From positions 1 through 10,888 of the forward strand of contig JAPLMO010000326.1 in the NCBI GenBank assembly GCA_026386995.1: a stretch of DNA of 10,888 nt, read 5' to 3'. This document shows positions 2,585-10,626 of the stretch, one piece after another. The notes beneath the pieces are model-generated. The model was not told where the DNA came from. It was given only the letters and a program-made list of their open reading frames with translations, and did not search any database. The first letter of the stretch is position 1. Each line of letters begins with the position of its first letter. A program made the position numbers and the translations under genes. Source of the DNA: Planctomycetota bacterium. GTDB taxonomy: Bacteria > Planctomycetota > Phycisphaerae > FEN-1346.

Positions 2585-3871
2585 GTGGAAAGCATGCAAG
2601 AACTGTTGGCTGCGATGAAGGGACTCGGGACGGTCGAGCAAATGCGGGCGGCCGCGGACGCGGGCCTCGCGCCGGCGGTCCGTCCGAAATCCAACGGCCA
2701 CATCCACCTGCCGCCGAACTTCTCGGCCCTGGAATCGGTCCGGCAACTGATGGACCTGGCCTCCGAGCAGGGCGTGACCGTGCTCGGCGCGAGCAACTAC
2801 TACGATTACGGCGTGTACGCCGAATTCGCAGCCCTCGCGCGCGTCAGGGGCATCTTCCCGATCTTCGGCCTCGAGGTCATCGCCCTCCTGGACGACCTTG
2901 CCCGGGCGGGCATCAAGGTGAACGACCCCGGCAACCCTGGTCGCATCTATTTCTGCGGCAAGGGCCTCGCGCGGTTCGCCCCGATGAACCGCGAGGCCAA
3001 GGCGATCATCGACCTCATCTGGAAGAACGACACTGACCGCATGACCCGCATGATCGACCTCCTGGCCCGGATCTTCGAGTCACAGGGCGTGCGGACGGGC
3101 CTTACGCTCGACGCGGTCAAGGACATGATCGTCCGCCGCCACGGCTCGCCGCGCGAGACGGTCTGCGTCCAGGAGCGCCACGTGGCCAAGGCGTTCCAGG
3201 AGGTGCTGTTCGAGCGTGCGGCGGCCGCGACGCGGACCGAGACGCTCACGCGCATCTTCGGCGCCAAGCCCAAGGACGCCGCCAGCGCGGTCGCGGTGCA
3301 GAACGACCTACGCTCGCACCTGATGAAGGCCGGCAAGCCGGCGTTCGTCGAGGAGGCGCTCGTCACGTTCGAGCAGGGTTACCGGCTGGTCCTGGAACTC
3401 GGCGGCATCCCCTGCTACCCGACGCTGGCCGACGGCACGCTGCCGATCTGCGGCTACGAGGCCCCGGTCGAGAAACTCATCGAGACGTTGCACGATGCGC
3501 GGGTCTACTCGGCTGAGTTCATCCCCATCCGCAACAAGCCCGAGGTGCTGAGCCATTACGTGAAGACGATGCGGGCCGCCGGCTTTGCCATCCTTGGCGG
3601 TACGGAGCACAACACGCTGGACCTTCTGCCGATCGAGCCGACGTGCCTGAAGGGCGAGCCCGTGCCGGAAGACGTAAAGGACATCTTCTGGGAAGGCGCG
3701 TGCGTGACCGCCGCCCACCAGTTCCTTACGCTGCACGGCAAGTGCGGCTTCGTCGACGCCGAAGGGCGGCCGAATCCGGCGTACTCCAGCGACGAGGCGC
3801 GGATCGCCGCCTTCCGCCGCCTCGGCGCGGCCGTGATGGAGACGTACTTCAAGAAGTGCCGGTGCCGCTAG
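2585..3871 (+). CDS. PHP-like putative metal-dependent hydrolase, uncharacterised
   Basis: A 428-residue soluble protein with no signal peptide. The N-terminal third resembles the PHP fold: NGHIH at 37-41 fits the first metal-binding HxH motif, and the strand-turn FGLEV at 94-98 fits the conserved Glu of PHP motif II. GGTEHNT at 338-344 near the C-terminus could supply a later metal-binding His (H342). The long middle part (about 130-330) is mostly helical in appearance and I do not recognise it. PHP enzymes hydrolyse phosphoesters using two or three metal ions; this activity is inferred, and the substrate is unknown. The start is a GTG with GAGAG five bases upstream; an ATG at 2594 is possible but sits less well. 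It is divergent from a sugar isomerase/epimerase, with paired promoters between them, which suggests a related role in carbohydrate metabolism. Confidence 0.75.
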   Translation: MESMQELLAAMKGLGTVEQMRAAADAGLAPAVRPKSNGHIHLPPNFSALESVRQLMDLASEQGVTVLGASNYYDYGVYAEFAALARVRGIFPIFGLEVIALLDDLARAGIKVNDPGNPGRIYFCGKGLARFAPMNREAKAIIDLIWKNDTDRMTRMIDLLARIFESQGVRTGLTLDAVKDMIVRRHGSPRETVCVQERHVAKAFQEVLFERAAAATRTETLTRIFGAKPKDAASAVAVQNDLRSHLMKAGKPAFVEEALVTFEQGYRLVLELGGIPCYPTLADGTLPICGYEAPVEKLIETLHDARVYSAEFIPIRNKPEVLSHYVKTMRAAGFAILGGTEHNTLDLLPIEPTCLKGEPVPEDVKDIFWEGACVTAAHQFLTLHGKCGFVDAEGRPNPAYSSDEARIAAFRRLGAAVMETYFKKCRCR

Positions 3872-3905
3872 CATAGTGCCACCGAATTATCGCATATTAT
3901 GGTAT

Positions 3906-3988
3906 CGGGTGCCACGGTTGCGCCGTTCAGCAACCGTGCCGCCGTTCGACGCAGAGCACGGCTGCAAACAGCGCAGCCGTGGCACCCG
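3906..3988. repeat. Paired-hairpin intergenic element, copy A
   Basis: Terminal inverted repeats of 12 bases (CGGGTGCCACGG at 3906-3917, its complement at 3977-3988) enclose two hairpins. The left stem is CACGGTTGC/GCAACCGTG (3913-3921 and 3930-3938, loop 8). The right stem is CACGGCTGC/GCAGCCGTG (3957-3965 and 3973-3981, loop 7). The two stems differ by a compensated base pair, as expected if the structure is selected. The element lies 34 bases after the stop of the PHP-like gene, where it could also attenuate transcription or protect the mRNA 3' end. The 85 bases 3906-3990 are identical to 7996-8080. Confidence 0.9.
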
Positions 3989-4022
3989 GCTTACGTTGCG
4001 TTGTAGTACTGGCACGAAAGGC

Positions 4023-4051
4023 TTGCAACCGCCCCCGGCGCGGCCTAGAAT
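4023..4051 (+). promoter_or_regulatory. Sigma70-like promoter of the methyltransferase gene
   Basis: TTGCAA (4023-4028) and TAGAAT (4046-4051) are separated by exactly 17 bases. The -10 matches consensus at five of six positions. Transcription would begin near 4058, leaving a leader of about 35 bases. It lies just downstream of repeat copy A, so this gene appears to start its own transcription unit. Confidence 0.6.
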
Positions 4052-4092
4052 CAGCCTCGCGTAACCACTCGTTGCAGCAAGGGGTGAATGCA

Positions 4093-4872
4093 ATGCCCGA
4101 CGCCCAATCGCCGTTCGACCCGTTTCAGCCCTACTACGACCTGCTCGTCAACTGGGAGAATCGCCTCGCGCTGGAGGGCCCCTTCTTCCAGAAGGTCTTC
4201 CACAGCGTCTCGGCGCGGCGGGTGCTGGACTGCGCCTGCGGCACGGGGCACCATGTGCGGATGTTCGCGCGGTGGGGCGTGGAGGCCGTCGGGACGGACC
4301 TTTCGCCGTCGATGATCTCGCAGGCCCTAGCCGATGCCCGGGCCGAGGGCAGCCGCATACGCTTCGAGGTCGCCGACTTCCGCGAACTGCCCGCGAAGTT
4401 CCCCGACCCGTTCCAGGCAGTCGTCTGCACGGGCAATAGTTTGCCCCTGGCGGGTTCGCCAGAGGGCCTGCGGCAGGCGATCAAGAGCATGCACGACGTG
4501 TTGTCGCCCGGCGGCGTGATCATCCTGCACATGCTCAACTATGCGCTGATCCACGAGGGCGCAAACGTTTACGAGGGTCCGCGCGTCCGCCAGGTCGAGG
4601 ACCGCGAGATTCTGTTCCTCAAGGTGTTCCGCAAGGTCCGGCGCCAATGCGACATGGACATCGTCGTCCTTGAGAAGCAGGCCGGCGAGTGGAAACGCTC
4701 CGAAACGCACGCGCGGGCGTGGGCCTTGGAACAACTGGAACTGGAGACGATGGTCAGCGGCGCGGGCTTCGTCCGATTGCAGTTCTACGGCGGCTACGAG
4801 CCTAAGCCGTTCGACCCGGCCGCCAGCCGCGACCTGATCCTCGTCGCCCGCAAAGAAAAGGCGGCCAAGTAA
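4093..4872 (+). CDS. Class I SAM-dependent methyltransferase
   Basis: A 259-residue protein with a Rossmann-type methyltransferase core. Motif I is VLDCACGTG at 44-52 (glycine-rich SAM loop). The acidic end of strand 2 is GTDLS at 67-71 (D69 expected to bind the SAM ribose). ADF at 94-96 fits the adenine-binding motif, and CTGNSLPL at 112-119 fits motif IV. A strand of the type LSPGGVIILHM follows. The rest (EGPRVRQVEDREILFLK onward, ending in a mixed beta region) resembles small-molecule methyltransferases of the methyltransf_11/25 type. The substrate cannot be told from sequence. The start at 4093 has an excellent AAGGGG Shine-Dalgarno 8 bases upstream; the in-frame GTG at 4084 overlaps that site and is less likely. 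The RidA-family gene follows 135 bases later across a large inverted repeat. Confidence 0.9.
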   Translation: MPDAQSPFDPFQPYYDLLVNWENRLALEGPFFQKVFHSVSARRVLDCACGTGHHVRMFARWGVEAVGTDLSPSMISQALADARAEGSRIRFEVADFRELPAKFPDPFQAVVCTGNSLPLAGSPEGLRQAIKSMHDVLSPGGVIILHMLNYALIHEGANVYEGPRVRQVEDREILFLKVFRKVRRQCDMDIVVLEKQAGEWKRSETHARAWALEQLELETMVSGAGFVRLQFYGGYEPKPFDPAASRDLILVARKEKAAK

Positions 4873-4905
4873 AACGTTTAGCCGCGAGTCGAAGCCAAGC
4901 GCGCC

Positions 4906-4989
4906 GGGTGGCATGGTCACGCTGTTGCGTGACCATGTTGCGCTTCTGTTCGGGGCACATGGTCACGCAACAGCGTGACCATGCCACCC
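4906..4989. repeat. Perfect 33-base inverted repeat, paired-hairpin element D
   Basis: Arms 4906-4938 and 4957-4989 are exact reverse complements around an 18-base loop. Each arm is itself a hairpin: CATGGTCACGC/GCGTGACCATG with a TGTT loop (4912-4922 with 4927-4937 on the left). The outer ends are GGGTGGCATGG and its complement, so each half reads GGTG followed by a hairpin, as in copies A-C, but with a different stem sequence. It begins 33 bases after the methyltransferase stop and ends 18 bases before the RidA start. The folded RNA would be a very strong stem and may separate the expression of the two genes. Confidence 0.93.
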
Positions 4990-5007
4990 AAAATGATAGG
5001 TGCTGTG

Positions 5008-5469
5008 ATGACCCCCGAAGAAAAACTTGCGGAACTCGGCCTGGCCCTGCCCCCTGCCCCCAAGCCCGTCGGCGCGTACGTGCCGGCGGTGCGCTCGGGC
5101 AACCTCGTGTTCGTCAGCGGCCAGTTGCCGATGCGCGACGGCTCGCTCCTGGCAACCGGCCACGTCGGCCGCGAGGTCACGCTGGAGACGGCCCAGGCGT
5201 GCGCGCGGCAGGCGACGCTGAACGCCCTGGCCGTGGTGGCGGCGGAGATCGGCGGCCTGGCGAAGGTCTCGCGGATCGTCCGCATCACCGGCCACGTCGC
5301 CAGCGCCCCCGGCTTTACGGACCAGGCCAAAGTCCTCAACGCGGCGAGCGAATTGCTGGCGCAGGCGTTCGGCGAAAGCGGCCGCCACAGCCGCGCGGCC
5401 CTGGGGGCGGCCGAGTTGCCGCTCGGGGCGCCGGTGGAGTTGGAGATGATCGCGGAAGTCCGCGGTTAA
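5008..5469 (+). CDS. RidA (YjgF/YER057c/UK114) family protein
   Basis: A 153-residue protein covering the whole YjgF/RidA fold with an N-terminal extension typical of the 150-residue RidA-like subgroup. Recognisable segments are GNLVFVSGQLP (31-41), ARQATLNALAVV (67-78) and SRAALGAAELPLGAPVELE (128-146). R129 corresponds to the arginine that binds the substrate carboxylate in RidA enamine/imine deaminases, so deaminase activity is plausible. RidA proteins hydrolyse reactive 2-aminoacrylate-type intermediates made by PLP enzymes; none is encoded nearby. The start at 5008 has AGG seven bases upstream. A GTG at 4975 in the same frame lies within inverted repeat D and is rejected. The next gene starts 9 bases after the stop, so the two are probably cotranscribed. 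Confidence 0.92.
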   Translation: MTPEEKLAELGLALPPAPKPVGAYVPAVRSGNLVFVSGQLPMRDGSLLATGHVGREVTLETAQACARQATLNALAVVAAEIGGLAKVSRIVRITGHVASAPGFTDQAKVLNAASELLAQAFGESGRHSRAALGAAELPLGAPVELEMIAEVRG

Positions 5470-5478
5470 GGGAACGCC

Positions 5479-6577
5479 ATGCGCAAGTTCGCCCCGCTTC
5501 TATCGCTCATTGTGCTATCCACTACCGCTTGGGCCGCCAACGCGCCGAAATCGCCACGAATCGACTACGTCGTCCCCTCCCCCCGCCAGCCGCAGGAGGC
5601 CGACGCGGCCACGATCTGGCATGACGATTTCAACGGGCCGCCCAAGGCTTACACAGAATCGACCGGCGACCTGGACGAGAAGACCGCTTTCGGCGGCGAA
5701 GGCAAGTCGATGCGGTGCCTCTACGAAAATGGGCAGCAAGGCAAAGGCAACCGCAAGGTCTTCTTCGGCGACTCGCCCACCGGCAAGGTCGTCCGCAAAG
5801 GCGAAACGTTCACCGACGTTTACTGGCGGATCTACGTCAAGCACCAGTACGGTTGGACGGGCGGCGGGCCCGACAAGATGTCGCGGGCCACGAGCATCGT
5901 CAGCCCGAAATGGAACCAGGCGATGATCGCCCACGTCTGGTCCAGCGGCGAGGCTTTGACGCTCGACCCGGCCTCCGGCGTGCGCGGCAGCGAGGTCGTC
6001 ACCACAAAGTACAACGATTTCCCCAACCTCCACTGGCTGGGCAACAAGCCAACGTCCACCTTTCTCATTCACTCGACAGCCGAGACGGGCTGGTGGGTAT
6101 GCGTTGAGTCGCGGGCCAAACTCAACACGCCGGGCGCCAAGGACGGCCTCAACCAACTCTGGATCGACGGACGCCTGGAGGCCGAGCGTAAGAACCTCGA
6201 TTGGCGCGGCTCGTACGCCGGCCACGGCATCAACGCCCTGTTCCTGGAGGCATACTGGAACAAGGGGTCGCCCGTCACGCAGGAGCGGTGTGCTCGTCAA
6301 GACGCCGTACCACGGACCGGGCGAGTTGGCCGCATGGGAGGCCGAGGTCGCGGCCGACCCGGCCGGCAAGGCCGTCGTGTGGGCGTCGAAGCCCGTAATC
6401 GCCGCCGACCGCGTGACGGTCGATAAGTCGGCCGGCGTGTTCGCCGGGCCGCTCGCCGGCAAGACCGCCCTCGCCCCCGGCGCAACGTACTGGTGCCGCG
6501 CGCGCCAGCAGGGCAAAGACAAGACCTGGTCCGCCTGGAGCCCGTGGCACCAGGCGCTGGGCACCGAAAGCCCCTAG
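5479..6577 (+). pseudogene. Secreted lectin/polysaccharide-lyase-like protein, frameshifted
   Basis: The gene begins at an ATG with AAGGGA five bases upstream. It encodes a Sec signal peptide (MRKFAPLLSLIVLSTTAWA, cleavage after residue 19). A beta-rich secreted domain follows, with TDVYWRIYVKHQYGWTGGG at 112-130, FPNLHWLGN at 181-189, LWIDGRLEA at 228-236 and INALFLEAYWNKGSPVTQER at 251-270. This pattern is that of concanavalin-A-like lectin or polysaccharide lyase folds; the exact family is not certain. After residue 270 (6288) the original frame turns arginine-rich and stops at 6426. The next frame continues sensibly from VLVKTPYHGPGEL (from 6290) to a stop at 6577, including a fibronectin-III-like tail (YWCRARQQ...WSAWSPW). 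The intact protein would be about 365-370 residues. Either the gene is decayed or the sequence has an error near 6289. Confidence 0.7.
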
Positions 6578-6601
6578 TGGCCTGTCAGGACTAAATCTGT
6601 T

Positions 6602-6677
6602 GGTGCCACGGCTGCGCTGTTTGCAGCGGTGGGGGGCGGCGGGGACGCACGGCTGCAAACGGCGCAGCCGTGGCACC
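6602..6677. repeat. Paired-hairpin intergenic element, copy C
   Basis: Inverted arms of 30 bases (6602-6631 and 6648-6677) match with two mismatches, and the outer 16 bases (GGTGCCACGGCTGCGC and complement) match perfectly. Each arm also folds on itself (CACGGCTGC with GCAGCGGTG on the left, one mismatch; CACGGCTGC with GCAGCCGTG on the right). It closely resembles the right half of copies A and B. It starts 24 bases after the stop of the frameshifted lyase-like gene and ends 48 bases before the UroD-like gene. Confidence 0.88.
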
Positions 6678-6725
6678 CACATAATTAAAGTTGACGCACT
6701 ACTAGAGCAAAGGAAAAGAGTTCCC

Positions 6726-7985
6726 ATGAATTCCCGCGAGAGGCTCCAAGCCACGCTCAACCACCGCCAGCCCGACCGCGTGTGCGTTGATTTCGGGTCC
6801 ACCGCCGTCACGGGCATGCACGTGGCCGCCGTCAGCCGCCTCAGGCGCGCCGTGCTCGGCCAGCCGGATTACCGCGTCAAGGTAATCGAGCCGTACCAGA
6901 TGCTGGGCGAGATCGACGAGCCCCTGCGCGAGGCCCTCGGCATCGACGTCGTCGGCCTTACGCCGCGCACCACGCTCTTCGGCTTCGAGAACGCGGGCTG
7001 GAAACCGTTCACGCTCTTTGACGGCACGCCCGTGCTCGTCCCCGAGAACTTCAACGTGACTGCCGAGCCCGATGGCGGCCTCCTGATGTACCCCGAGGGC
7101 GACCTCGTGGCCCCGCCGAGCGGCCGCATGCCGGCGGGCGGCTACTTCTTCGACTCGATCATCCGCCAGCCGCCGATCGACGAGGACAAACTCGACCCAG
7201 CGGACAACCTGGAGGAGTTCGCCCCCTTCGGTCCGCGCGAGATCGCCTACTACGAGCGCGAGGCCGGGCATCTCGCCCGGCGGCCCGACCTCGGTGCGAT
7301 CCTGACCATGCCCGGCACGGCCTTCGGCGACATCGCCCTGGTGCCCGCGCCGTGGATGAAGCACCCCAAAGGCATCCGCGACGTCGCCGAGTGGTACATG
7401 TCGACGGCCATACGGCGTGACTACGTCCGCAAGGTTTTCGAGAAACAGTGCGAGATCGCCCTCGGCAACATCGACCGGCTGGCCGCCATCCTCGGCGATT
7501 GCGTCCAGGCGGTGTTCCTGACGGGAACCGACTTCGGCACGCAGCGGGGCCTCTTCATATCGCTTGCGGCGTACCGCGATCTCTTCAAGCCGTTCCACGT
7601 CGCCGTCAACAAGCGCATCCACGAGAAGACGCGGTGGAAGACGTTCATCCACTCGTGCGGGGCGGTGGTGGACCTGATTCCGGACCTCATCGAGGCGGGC
7701 TTCGACATCCTGAACCCCGTCCAGACCGCGGCGGCCGGGATGGACCCGAAGCGCCTGAAGAAGGAATTCGGCGACCGGCTCGTCTTCTGGGGCGGCGGGA
7801 CCGACACGCAACACACGATGGCCTTCGGCACGCCCGACGAGGTGTACCGCGAGATCCGCGAGCGGATCCACATTTTCGGCGAGGGCGGCGGGTTCGTCTT
7901 CGACTCGGTCCACAACATCCAGGCCACCACGCCGACGGAAAACTTGCTTGCGATGTTCAAGGCAATCCGCGAAAGTAGCCGCTAG
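6726..7985 (+). CDS. Uroporphyrinogen decarboxylase-like (UroD/MtaA/CmuA superfamily) protein
   Basis: A 419-residue cytoplasmic protein of the URO-D superfamily (PF01208 type). The N-terminus MNSRERLQATLNHRQPDRV is typical of the non-haem branch found in many anaerobes and Planctomycetota. HSCG at 309-312 resembles the zinc-binding HxC motif of the MtaA/CmuA corrinoid methyltransferases. DLIPDLIEAGFDILNPVQ follows, then GGGTDTQ where many methyltransferase members have a further metal ligand, and finally FVFDSVHNIQATTPTENLLAMF, a standard C-terminal signature of this branch. No haem genes or corrinoid protein genes are in the window, so true uroporphyrinogen decarboxylase activity is unlikely; a methyl-transfer or sugar-linked role is possible but unproven. 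GAG lies five bases and AGGA 11 bases upstream of the ATG. An earlier start in the same frame at 6600 would lie across repeat C and is rejected. No clear promoter was seen. Confidence 0.88.
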   Translation: MNSRERLQATLNHRQPDRVCVDFGSTAVTGMHVAAVSRLRRAVLGQPDYRVKVIEPYQMLGEIDEPLREALGIDVVGLTPRTTLFGFENAGWKPFTLFDGTPVLVPENFNVTAEPDGGLLMYPEGDLVAPPSGRMPAGGYFFDSIIRQPPIDEDKLDPADNLEEFAPFGPREIAYYEREAGHLARRPDLGAILTMPGTAFGDIALVPAPWMKHPKGIRDVAEWYMSTAIRRDYVRKVFEKQCEIALGNIDRLAAILGDCVQAVFLTGTDFGTQRGLFISLAAYRDLFKPFHVAVNKRIHEKTRWKTFIHSCGAVVDLIPDLIEAGFDILNPVQTAAAGMDPKRLKKEFGDRLVFWGGGTDTQHTMAFGTPDEVYREIRERIHIFGEGGGFVFDSVHNIQATTPTENLLAMFKAIRESSR

Positions 7986-7995
7986 CGGCAGTGGC

Positions 7996-8078
7996 CGGGT
8001 GCCACGGTTGCGCCGTTCAGCAACCGTGCCGCCGTTCGACGCAGAGCACGGCTGCAAACAGCGCAGCCGTGGCACCCG
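7996..8078. repeat. Paired-hairpin intergenic element, copy B
   Basis: This is base-for-base identical to copy A (85 bases, 7996-8080 equal to 3906-3990), in the same orientation and 4,090 bases away. It starts 10 bases after the stop of the UroD-like gene and ends 35 bases before the likely start of the binding-protein gene. The two hairpins probably reduce read-through between these genes. Confidence 0.92.
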
Positions 8079-8100
8079 GCGTCTTGGATAATGTGCAATC

Positions 8101-8116
8101 GGAGTGATGCACCATA
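8101..8116 (+). promoter_or_regulatory. Shine-Dalgarno and probable AUA start of the binding-protein gene
   Basis: GGAG at 8101-8104 is followed after 9 bases by ATA (8114-8116), then AAG AGG, which begins a classic lipoprotein signal sequence. No ATG, GTG or TTG exists in this frame between the upstream stop (TGA at 8105) and 8279. The ATG at 8107 is in another frame and too close to the Shine-Dalgarno. Either AUA is used or a G-to-A change has removed the ATG. Confidence 0.6.
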
Positions 8117-9100
8117 AAGAGGCTCAACGTACTTCTTACGGTCCTGGCGGCAGTCCTCGCCGTCGGATGCAGCAAGCCCGGCCCCGCCCCGGCCGAAAAA
8201 GGCCGGACGGACGCATCCGACCAACTTTACATCGAGGTCTCGGCCCTCGGTAGCCTCGACTACTTCTACGACCACAAGATGGGCATGGAGATGGCCGGCA
8301 AGGCCCTCGGCGTGCGGACCGAGTACGTCGGCCCGGCCGACTACGACATGAACGCCATGGCGAACGTCTTTGAACTGGCGATCGCCAAGAACCCCAAGGG
8401 CATCGTCGTCGTCGGCTTCGAGAACTCCCTCAGCGCCCTCGTCGACAAGGCCGCCGCCAAGGGCATCCCCGTCGTCACGGTCGACGCCGATCTGCCCGGC
8501 TCCAAGCGCATCGCCTTCGTCGGCACGGGCAACTATCGCGCGGGCTTCGAGGGCGGCAAGAAGATGGCGGCCCTCCTGGACGGCAAGGGCAAGGTCGCCC
8601 TCATGACCAAGCCCGGCCAGTCAAACCTGGAGGAGCGGGTCCGCGGATACCAGGAGGCCCTCAAGCAGTCGCCCGGCATCGAGGTCGTCCGCGTCGCCGA
8701 CACGCAGTCCGACCCCGTGGTAGCCGCCCAGGCGGCGGGATCGCTGCTCCAGCAGTACCCGGACCTGGCGGGCATCGCGTGCGTCGAGGCGGCCGGCGGC
8801 ACGGGCGCCGCCACGGCCGTCCGAGAGGCCAACCGCGCCGGCAAGGTCAAGATCGTGGCGATGGACCGCGGCAACGAGGTCCTCGAGTACATCAAGGACG
8901 GCGTCATCAGCGCAACCGTCGCCCAGCAGACCGCCCTCATGCCCTTCTACGCGGTCCAGATACTCTACAACCTGAGCAACCATCCGGTCCCCGTGACCTC
9001 GGACAACGCCAAGGCCGGCATCACGGGCGTACCCGAGGTGATCGACACCGGCGTCGTCATCGTGGACAAGGACAACTGCCAGTACTTTGTGAGGAAATAG
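8114..9100 (+). CDS. Sugar ABC transporter periplasmic substrate-binding lipoprotein (Peripla_BP_4 type)
   Basis: From the ATA at 8114 the product is 328 residues. It has a lipoprotein signal (KRLNVLLTVLAAVLAVGC, lipobox Cys19 encoded at 8168-8170), a short Pro/Ala-rich linker, and a two-lobed periplasmic binding domain of the LacI/ribose-binding type. Recognisable segments include PKGIVVVGFENSLSALVDKA, GIPVVTVDADLPGS, AFVGTGNYRAGFEGGKKM, ERVRGYQEAL, KIVAMDRGNEVLEYIKDGVISATVAQ and ITGVPEVIDTGVVIV. It captures a sugar in the periplasm and delivers it to a CUT2 permease; the sugar is not predictable. A model beginning at the first ATG (8279) would lose the signal peptide and the first strand of the domain. 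The DUF4380 gene begins 2 bases after the stop, and a sugar ABC ATPase follows, so this is the first gene of a transport operon. Confidence 0.85.
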   Translation: MKRLNVLLTVLAAVLAVGCSKPGPAPAEKGRTDASDQLYIEVSALGSLDYFYDHKMGMEMAGKALGVRTEYVGPADYDMNAMANVFELAIAKNPKGIVVVGFENSLSALVDKAAAKGIPVVTVDADLPGSKRIAFVGTGNYRAGFEGGKKMAALLDGKGKVALMTKPGQSNLEERVRGYQEALKQSPGIEVVRVADTQSDPVVAAQAAGSLLQQYPDLAGIACVEAAGGTGAATAVREANRAGKVKIVAMDRGNEVLEYIKDGVISATVAQQTALMPFYAVQILYNLSNHPVPVTSDNAKAGITGVPEVIDTGVVIVDKDNCQYFVRK

Positions 9101-9102
9101 CC

Positions 9103-10626
9103 ATGCATGCAGCAGCCTCGCAATACGTTCTTCTGCGGCCGAGGTCCCCCGCCTGGTGGCATGCCCACAGCCTGCCCGCCCTGTGGCGGGCCGCTGTTCG
9201 CGTGGGCATGCACGGTGCCGGGGGCATAAACATGCCCAGGCAATCCCGGCGCGCCGGGAGGCATGCCACCCTTCTGGTGGGAGCCGCCCTCCTTTTTCTT
9301 GCGGCGGTGCCGGCGCTGGGCGCGGGCACTAGCAAGTCCACCTACCGCGGCTGGGAGTCGCTTGCCCTCAGCAACGGCCTCGTCGAGGTCCAGATCGTGC
9401 CGCAGATCGGCGGCCGGGTCATCCAGTTCAAACTCGGCGACTTCGAGTTTCTATGGGTCAATCCACAACTGGCGGGCAAACTGCCGCCACCGAGCGGCCT
9501 GGGGCCGAAGGGCGAGTGGCTGAACTACGGCGGCGACAAACTCTGGCCCGCCCCGCAAGGGTGGGACAACGACCAGCAGTGGCCCGGCCCGCCTGATGCC
9601 GTTCTCGACGGCGGCCCGCACAGGGGCAGAATCGTCGTCGAGAAGGCCGATGACATGCACACGGTCAGCCTTGACAGCCCCGAGGACAAGCGCAGCGGCA
9701 TACAGTTCACGCGCTGGATCCGCGTTTACACCGGCAGCCGGGGCGGCGCCAACGTCACTTTCGACACGACGATGAAGAACATCGACACCAAGCCCCGCCG
9801 CTGGGGCATCTGGCAGGTCACGCAGATCAATGCCTGCAACCGCGCGGGCGATGGGTACAACAAGGAAATCCGCTGCTGGTCGCCCGTCAACCCCGCGAGC
9901 ATCTACCCGCGCGGCTACTGCGAGATGTTCGGCCTCGTCAACAACCCGTCTTTCCGCGTCGACCCGGCGACGAAAATGTTCTCGGCCAACTACAAGCGCA
10001 TCGTCGGCAAGGTCGGCCTCGACAACTCCGCCGGCTGGGTGGCCGTCGTGGATGGCACGGCCGGCTACGTCTTCGTCGAGCGGTTCGAGCACTATCCCGA
10101 CAAGAAGTACCCCGACCAGGCGTCGGTCGAGTTCTGGATGAACGGCACGGGGCAGATCGTGACCGGCGACAAGATCGTCGACTGCAAGGACGATCCGGTC
10201 GAGACGCCGTACCTCGTAGAGACCGAGATCCTGAGCCCCTTTGCCGAACTCCGGCCCGGCGATAGTTACTCGTTCCGCCTCGATTGGTTTGCCGCGCGGA
10301 TCGGCGGCAACTACCCCGTCCTGGCCTGCACGGACAGGGGCGTGACGTGCGAGCCGCTGACAGCAAAGGCCGCGGTCGACGGCAAGGTGCATCTGGCGGG
10401 CCGCTTCGGCGTCTTCTACGTCGCCCGCGCGGCCGTCGTGGCCCTGGACGGAGATGGAAAAGACCTCGAGACGATCGACCTCAAACTCCCGGTCTCGCCC
10501 CTGGAGGCGCTCGTCCTGGAGAAGGACGAGCCCCTGCCGCCCAAGGCCGCCTCGGTGCGGCTGGTGCTCCTCGATTCCGCCGGCAAGGAGATCGGGGAAC
10601 TGGCGCGGACGCAGATCGCGAAATAA
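9103..10626 (+). CDS. Secreted DUF4380-type protein (galactose-mutarotase-like fold), start uncertain
   Basis: The body of the protein begins [20 protein letters not shown], then [21 protein letters not shown], which is the start of DUF4380 proteins. [19 protein letters not shown] and [13 protein letters not shown] follow; the fold is related to galactose mutarotase and glycoside-hydrolase beta-sandwiches, and the biochemical role is unknown. A hydrophobic segment ([18 protein letters not shown]) is a Sec signal peptide. The ATG at 9103 has GAGG eight bases upstream and sits 2 bases after the binding-protein stop (507 residues). However, about 40 codons between 9154 and 9270 are repeat element E, which gives an odd N-terminal extension. 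The ATG at 9232, inside the repeat, with a G-rich stretch seven bases upstream, gives 464 residues and a normal n-region ([11 protein letters not shown]). Its position between the binding protein and ATPase suggests it handles the transported sugar. Confidence 0.85.
9154..9270. repeat. Paired-hairpin element E inside the DUF4380 signal-peptide region
   Basis: The ends are GGTGGCATGCC (9155-9165) and its exact complement (9260-9270). The left half folds as GCATGCCCAC/GTGGGCATGC (9159-9168 with 9202-9211) around an inner stem GCCCGCC/GGCGGGC (9174-9180 with 9185-9191). The right half folds as CATGCC/GGCATG (with 9231-9237) around the 14-base palindrome CCCGGCGCGCCGGG (9245-9258). The GGTG-hairpin layout equals that of element D but with larger loops. 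Counting the T at 9154 it spans 117 bases, exactly 39 codons. Confidence 0.8.

Follow-up and report, generated by a model that had tools for sequence, protein, structure and literature searches.

The window analysed here, a stretch of 10,888 nt from a planctomycete contig, contains five inverted hairpin pairs of common layout, and the question is what these elements are and whether they are mobile. The first-pass annotation had tentatively read them as paired REP sequences, with GGTG as a possible guide and mobilisation by a RAYT transposase as an inference. All five pairs are present where it placed them, each running from GGTG to CACC:

Element 1, 3908..3986, no strand assigned: inverted pair of GTGC-tagged hairpins with stems CACGGTTGC and CACGGCTGC; putative REPIN.
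Element 2, 4907..4988, no strand assigned: inverted pair of GTGG-tagged hairpins with stem CATGGTCACGC; putative REPIN.
Element 3, 6602..6677, no strand assigned: inverted pair of GTGC-tagged hairpins with stem CACGGCTGC and a mismatch in the left one; putative REPIN.
Element 4, 7998..8076, no strand assigned: copy of element 1 at another site; putative REPIN.
Element 5, 9155..9270, no strand assigned: GTGG-tagged pair with stem CATGCCCAC, enlarged loops and a degenerate right half.

Only four of these elements are independent, as element 4 repeats element 1 without a difference over 85 bp (3906–3990 for element 1) at a site 4 kb away, a sign of recent copying. Tagged hairpins are far more frequent than expected: a scan for GGTG followed within 0–2 nt by nine perfectly paired bases and a 3–16-nt loop finds seven, whereas 200 first-order shuffles average 0.025 and never exceed one, so that the comparison with shuffled sequence proposed at first pass, run here on the window, bears out its expectation. 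A laxer rule (GTG[C/G]C, at least 8 of 9 bases paired, longer loops allowed) recovers nine of the ten expected half-elements, the missing one being the degenerate right half of 9155–9270, together with one unrelated match at 5163 on the minus strand. When folded as single-stranded DNA, all five elements outdo every one of 200 shuffled versions (z −5.0 to −15.4). Searches of Rfam returned only microRNA-precursor models, all below their gathering scores, and were set aside as a chance result of long hairpins.

The position of the elements relative to genes invites a different explanation, namely that they are immobile terminators or RNA-stabilising hairpins selected at gene ends. As noted at first pass, four of the five lie just past stop codons (35, 33, 24, and 11 bp for elements 1–4), and the strong folding of all of them would suit such a role. 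Element 5 lies 54 bp past a stop codon, yet is in frame in the 5′ part of an open reading frame at 9103–10626. A terminator scan of positions 3700–9500 flags eight sites as opposed to 4.4 in shuffled sequence, including two inside element 2, two just behind element 5 and, on the opposite strand, a weak one within element 5. However, elements 1, 3, and 4 are not flagged, and element 2 has a mixed tail only.

Several observations concern the genes around the elements. At 9103–9330, element 5 seems to code for the initial part of a DUF4380 protein's signal peptide. Among its 33 nearest relatives (P0242–P0274, the window's own protein excluded), the repeat-coded stretch recurs in one (P0243), and most others have a short signal peptide right at the start; in P0244 the start codon lies just past the repeat, a case that the protein sequence alone cannot settle. 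The gene following RidA (5479–6577) appears to be split into two frames near 6290 (open reading frames 5479–6426 and 6104–6577), representing a frameshift, a decayed gene or a sequencing error. At 8100–8280, a substrate-binding protein gene ending at 9100 lacks a clear ATG, GTG, or TTG before its lipoprotein-like signal, the earliest listed start being 8279. No transposase gene is found within the 10,888 nt.

Repeats and transposases were both looked for in related genomes. For the 428-aa protein encoded at 2585–3871, the genome that matches best is a Planctomycetia assembly (73%; L001, fen_1346, in G001), in keeping with a probable planctomycete origin. Three elements resemble stretches of these genomes directly: element 2 (80% identity over 90 bp, L147) and element 3 (78% over 77 bp, L156) in G057, and element 5 (80% over 124 bp, L259) in the nearest genome, G001. 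In a set of 150 G001 relatives, the stem word of elements 1, 3, and 4, GGTGSCACGGYTGC, reaches 68, 64, and 10 copies in G057, G137, and G081, with 0–3 in each of the remaining 147; its reversed control occurs 0–6 times per genome in the whole set. The stem type of elements 2 and 5, GGTGGCATGSYCACGC, occurs 132, 96, and 72 times in G001, G057, and G011 and 0–14 times in the other 58 of 61 genomes, its control being absent from all 61. The genome-wide copy search called for at first pass thus yields, in relatives, tens to more than 100 copies in a few genomes and numbers near background in most. Within 363 kb of G001 there are 76 tagged hairpins (GTG[C/G]C, perfect 8-bp stems), 40 of them from one stem family.

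The repeated unit is the pair, as is characteristic of REPINs. This holds for the window and for 70 of 84 matches in relatives, which have a second tagged hairpin facing them within 200 bp (36/43 in G001, 19/23 in G137, and 15/18 in G057). In the samples of these three genomes the facing pairs carry their tags on the outside, and tag-to-tag lengths are mostly 84–88, 130–132 or 171–175, and 61–69 bp. None of nine matches in G081 satisfies the facing rule, which omits loops below 3 nt; by eye, the facing CACC end is present. A further hairpin family of the same layout, GTGGCACAG/GTGGCACC, is seen in L126, L128 (G137), L170, L247 (G001). The high copy number and extragenic location typical of REPINs are likewise found in the relatives: using a gene model trained on long open reading frames, only 18 of 93 word matches fall inside predicted coding sequence, which makes up 81–87% of the sampled DNA. 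An earlier, crude coding model had placed 25/43, 20/23, 9/18, and 5/9 matches in coding sequence, with an intergenic bias that was weak or missing; it was dropped since spurious reading frames filled the intergenic DNA. Many assemblies of the relatives are fragmented and several repeat matches stand at contig starts, so such repeats may explain why some assemblies end there.

Y1 transposases are present in all ten genomes tested. Three of four proteins exceed the cut-off of the NCBIfam model NF047646 (REP_Tyr_transpos), while the IS200 model also matches one of the four, below its cut-off (24 vs. 55 bits); the top PDB match is Escherichia coli TnpAREP (4er8, E 2.7e-5). The four, including a fourth gene from G057, align well with each other. 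Searched with a profile of this clade at E 1e-30, 40 of 150 genomes yield a total of 68 matches, with five transposases in G057 and four in G137. Part of these matches formed the DNA sample for the flank tests described below, comprising 58 distinct proteins, 55 of them at 140 bits or more. All 55 contain P-x-H-x-H (48 under the stricter rule H-hydrophobic-H) and 53 contain the Y---NP motif, so that the Y1 domain with HUH and catalytic tyrosine known from RAYT/TnpAREP proteins is present; the CnGA foot and Y----Q motif of class 3 TnpAY1 are not. Transposase and repeat tend to occur together, as the former is found in 10 of 11 genomes with the GGTGGCATGSYCACGC word and in 7 of 50 without it (Fisher p 2e-6). 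Repeats can also stand without a detected partner: at E 1e-30, no clade transposase is found in G081 (10 word matches, nine with a hairpin) or in G012 (nine GGTGGCATGSYCACGC matches). In 15 genomes of other lineages the profile has no match at E 1e-20, a result that is uninformative taken alone.

The link between gene and repeat is closest at the gene ends. For 47 of the 55 transposase genes, the best inverted repeat linking the two flanks has GTG[C/G] in each arm, as opposed to 0 of 444 random open reading frames (500 drawn from the same loci, the rest having short flanks); under a strict flank rule the figures are 24/53 vs. 1/511. The Y1/HUH transposase flanked by the same hairpins, which the first-pass annotation had proposed to look for, hence exists in relatives. 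In G057, where the dispersed pairs join two stems, a transposase gene has a hairpin of one stem on one side and a hairpin of the second stem on the other; in G137, two genes lie between hairpins of the dispersed type. Both cases correspond to the RAYT/TnpAREP arrangement of a gene flanked by its REP family. Eight of the 55 clade genes fail the test. Four of 17 other Y1 transposases pass it, within longer arms of another make-up (26 of 30 loci entered this comparison and nine were skipped for short flanks). The inverted repeats that flank these other transposases (L087–L116, same set of genomes) are often of quite another sequence, e.g. AGCCCCGAAGGGGC; a motif search meant to read their tags located the gene in only 8 of 24 loci.

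Furthermore, each transposase tested matches a repeat family of its own. A single stem is mostly common to both ends of a transposase gene. Where a genome has more than one transposase, their stems differ, and each of these stems is amplified in that genome. Samples from four genomes (340–363 kb each, transposase genes masked) were probed with 11 end hairpins, 10 of them distinct; each occurs 8–49 times in its own genome and 0–2 times in the other samples. The one exception, GTGCCACGGCTGC, is shared by transposases from G057 and G137, and copies of it are frequent in either genome. In 948 kb of other genomes (L001–L064) the probes have no copies. That transposase genes are merely located in repeat-rich intergenic DNA is scarcely credible, since dense as the repeats are in these genomes, the absence of tagged inverted repeats from all 444 control frames at the same loci, the shared stems at gene ends and the separate amplification of each stem all speak against such a chance association.

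The ends of the transposase genes also define the tag. The GGTG noticed at first pass is real, but the conserved block exceeds it and is better written as GTG[C/G], usually preceded by G and directly abutting a stem that starts with C. Among 94 ends of 47 transposase genes, the foot is GTGC in 62 and GTGG in 32, the following base is C in all 94, and the preceding base is G in 66, T in 18, C in 8, and A in 2. The stems vary, with 39 distinct 9-nt sequences among the 47 left ends, and only 27 of the 47 genes have at least 8 of 9 bases paired at both ends. Such a foot, constant while the stems change, is the pattern to be expected of a guide. When all feet are counted without bias, the 142 hairpins in transposase flanks comprise 62 with GTGC and 12 with GTGG (runner-up, 6); in random flanks (885 hairpins) GTGC (51) and GTGG (29) are again commonest, because those stretches are repeat-rich. 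On a quick tree of 55 transposases, in which 9 of 52 inner branches are well supported, the base before the tag (G vs. other, 44 rows) changes five times compared with a shuffled mean of 10.8 (0/1000 as low) and the fourth tag base (47 rows) ten times compared with 13.5 (24/1000 as low), both tests being inflated by near relatives.

Comparisons of sites speak for mobility. One G001 stretch (L244) holds four pairs, two of which were compared with orthologous loci at about 70–79% DNA identity: G012 and G013 both lack the element at the first site and G013 lacks it at the second, and no tagged hairpin lies between recognisable flanks at these two orthologous loci. The presence/absence comparison suggested at first pass thus shows absence at two sites, in diverged genomes with inexact ends and no base-exact empty site; the relatives of G057 are too diverged for a site comparison. 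G080 carries several near-identical transposase units (L214, L215, L218, L219), three of them neighbours 1578 bp apart. Seven of its eight transposase matches were aligned. The unit starts with GGGGTGGCAC in six of seven copies and ends with CAGTGCCACCCCG in all seven, and the DNA outside it is unrelated except that the three neighbours share flanks in part. These copies are evidence, at the level of sequence, that the transposase gene itself has moved.

These results weigh against the proposal that the hairpins are fixed terminators. Identical copies at different sites, large copy-number differences among relatives, a match to the hairpins at transposase ends and absence at two orthologous sites are all unexpected under it, which makes it very unlikely. 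Even fainter is the prospect that the elements are miniature derivatives of an unrelated DD(E/D) transposon; their symmetrical GGTG…CACC ends do resemble terminal inverted repeats, but both halves fold into hairpins of their own, in which the stem varies and the foot is constant, and the search, directed at Y1 transposases, located a gene of that type between such ends. The elements are, very probably, REPINs, that is, non-autonomous partners of a RAYT (Y1 HUH) clade in planctomycete-like genomes. The mobilisation by a RAYT proposed at first pass gains support in relatives from copy number, flanked transposases, matched families and the two orthologous absences, all of it drawn from sequence comparison.

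As in other members of its family, the transposase would bind the hairpin as single-stranded DNA, the GTG[C/G] foot may act as the guide by which it picks the cleavage site, and the hairpin pair would then be copied or moved into intergenic DNA. Since two stem families are present, the window's genome probably carries at least two such transposase genes. Secondary effects of the elements on host transcripts are possible because most of those in the window directly follow genes. A more far-reaching suggestion, made tentatively and with more doubt than conviction, is that this is a RAYT clade with a changed guide, GTG[C/G], standing between domesticated RAYTs and free insertion sequences, with several private REPIN families per genome and its own gene still mobile in at least one lineage.

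Published descriptions allow a comparison with known systems. REPINs are described as REP doublets forming hairpins, reported in Pseudomonas and also in E. coli and Nostoc (Bertels and Rainey, 2011, PMC3116915). Like these, the elements described here are inverted REP pairs with a less conserved spacer, extragenic and RAYT-linked; unlike them, they have planctomycete-like hosts, a GTGC or GTGG foot and other stems. One Pseudomonas REP group in that study starts with GTGG. GTGG is already a published REP tag, and the GTGC variant is the form not listed in the literature consulted. A literature search on planctomycete RAYTs and REPs, which left most subscription papers outside its range, gave no description of a GTGC foot, and none of the terms sought occurs in PMC2817692. 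The PVC superphylum is reported to contain GTAG families (Di Nocera et al., 2013, PMC3733652); the tags listed in that study are GTAG (GTGG in most O. terrae members) and CGTC. Those REPs resemble the present ones in being tagged palindromes located mostly downstream of coding regions and often in opposite pairs. The TIRYT consensus of the same study, GGGGWSAS, is similar but not equal to the outer GGGGTGGC of the G080 unit.

Further counterparts are REPtrons and TnpAREP class 2 (Quentin et al., 2018, PMC6006769), with which the clade shares a Y1 gene flanked by its own REP family, the possibility of more than one family per genome, the Y---NP motif and a tag at the hairpin foot. The foot published there is GT[AG]G, with CnGA for class 3; the GTGG part of the feet found here (32/94) fits the former, whereas the GTGC part (62/94) does not. 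In the stretch where E. coli TnpAREP has its tag-contacting residues, the clade shows one additional residue in the alignment, and E and H are replaced by D and R. Should the published guide rule apply, in which GTGG corresponds to CC and GTAC to GA or GT (PMC8266576), GTGC would be expected to send cleavage to another dinucleotide than GTAG. In the literature consulted, the RAYTs tested biochemically come from E. coli, Stenotrophomonas, and Marinomonas (PMC8266576), and the large set of natural transposase–hairpin pairs in the present clade, with changed feet, variable stems and a near one-to-one match, would allow tests of the guide rule in a distant lineage. With IS200/IS605 elements, the clade has in common single-strand Y1 chemistry and subterminal hairpins (PMC6006769), as well as a whole unit in several copies in one genome (G080); unlike theirs, its transposase falls in the REP family.
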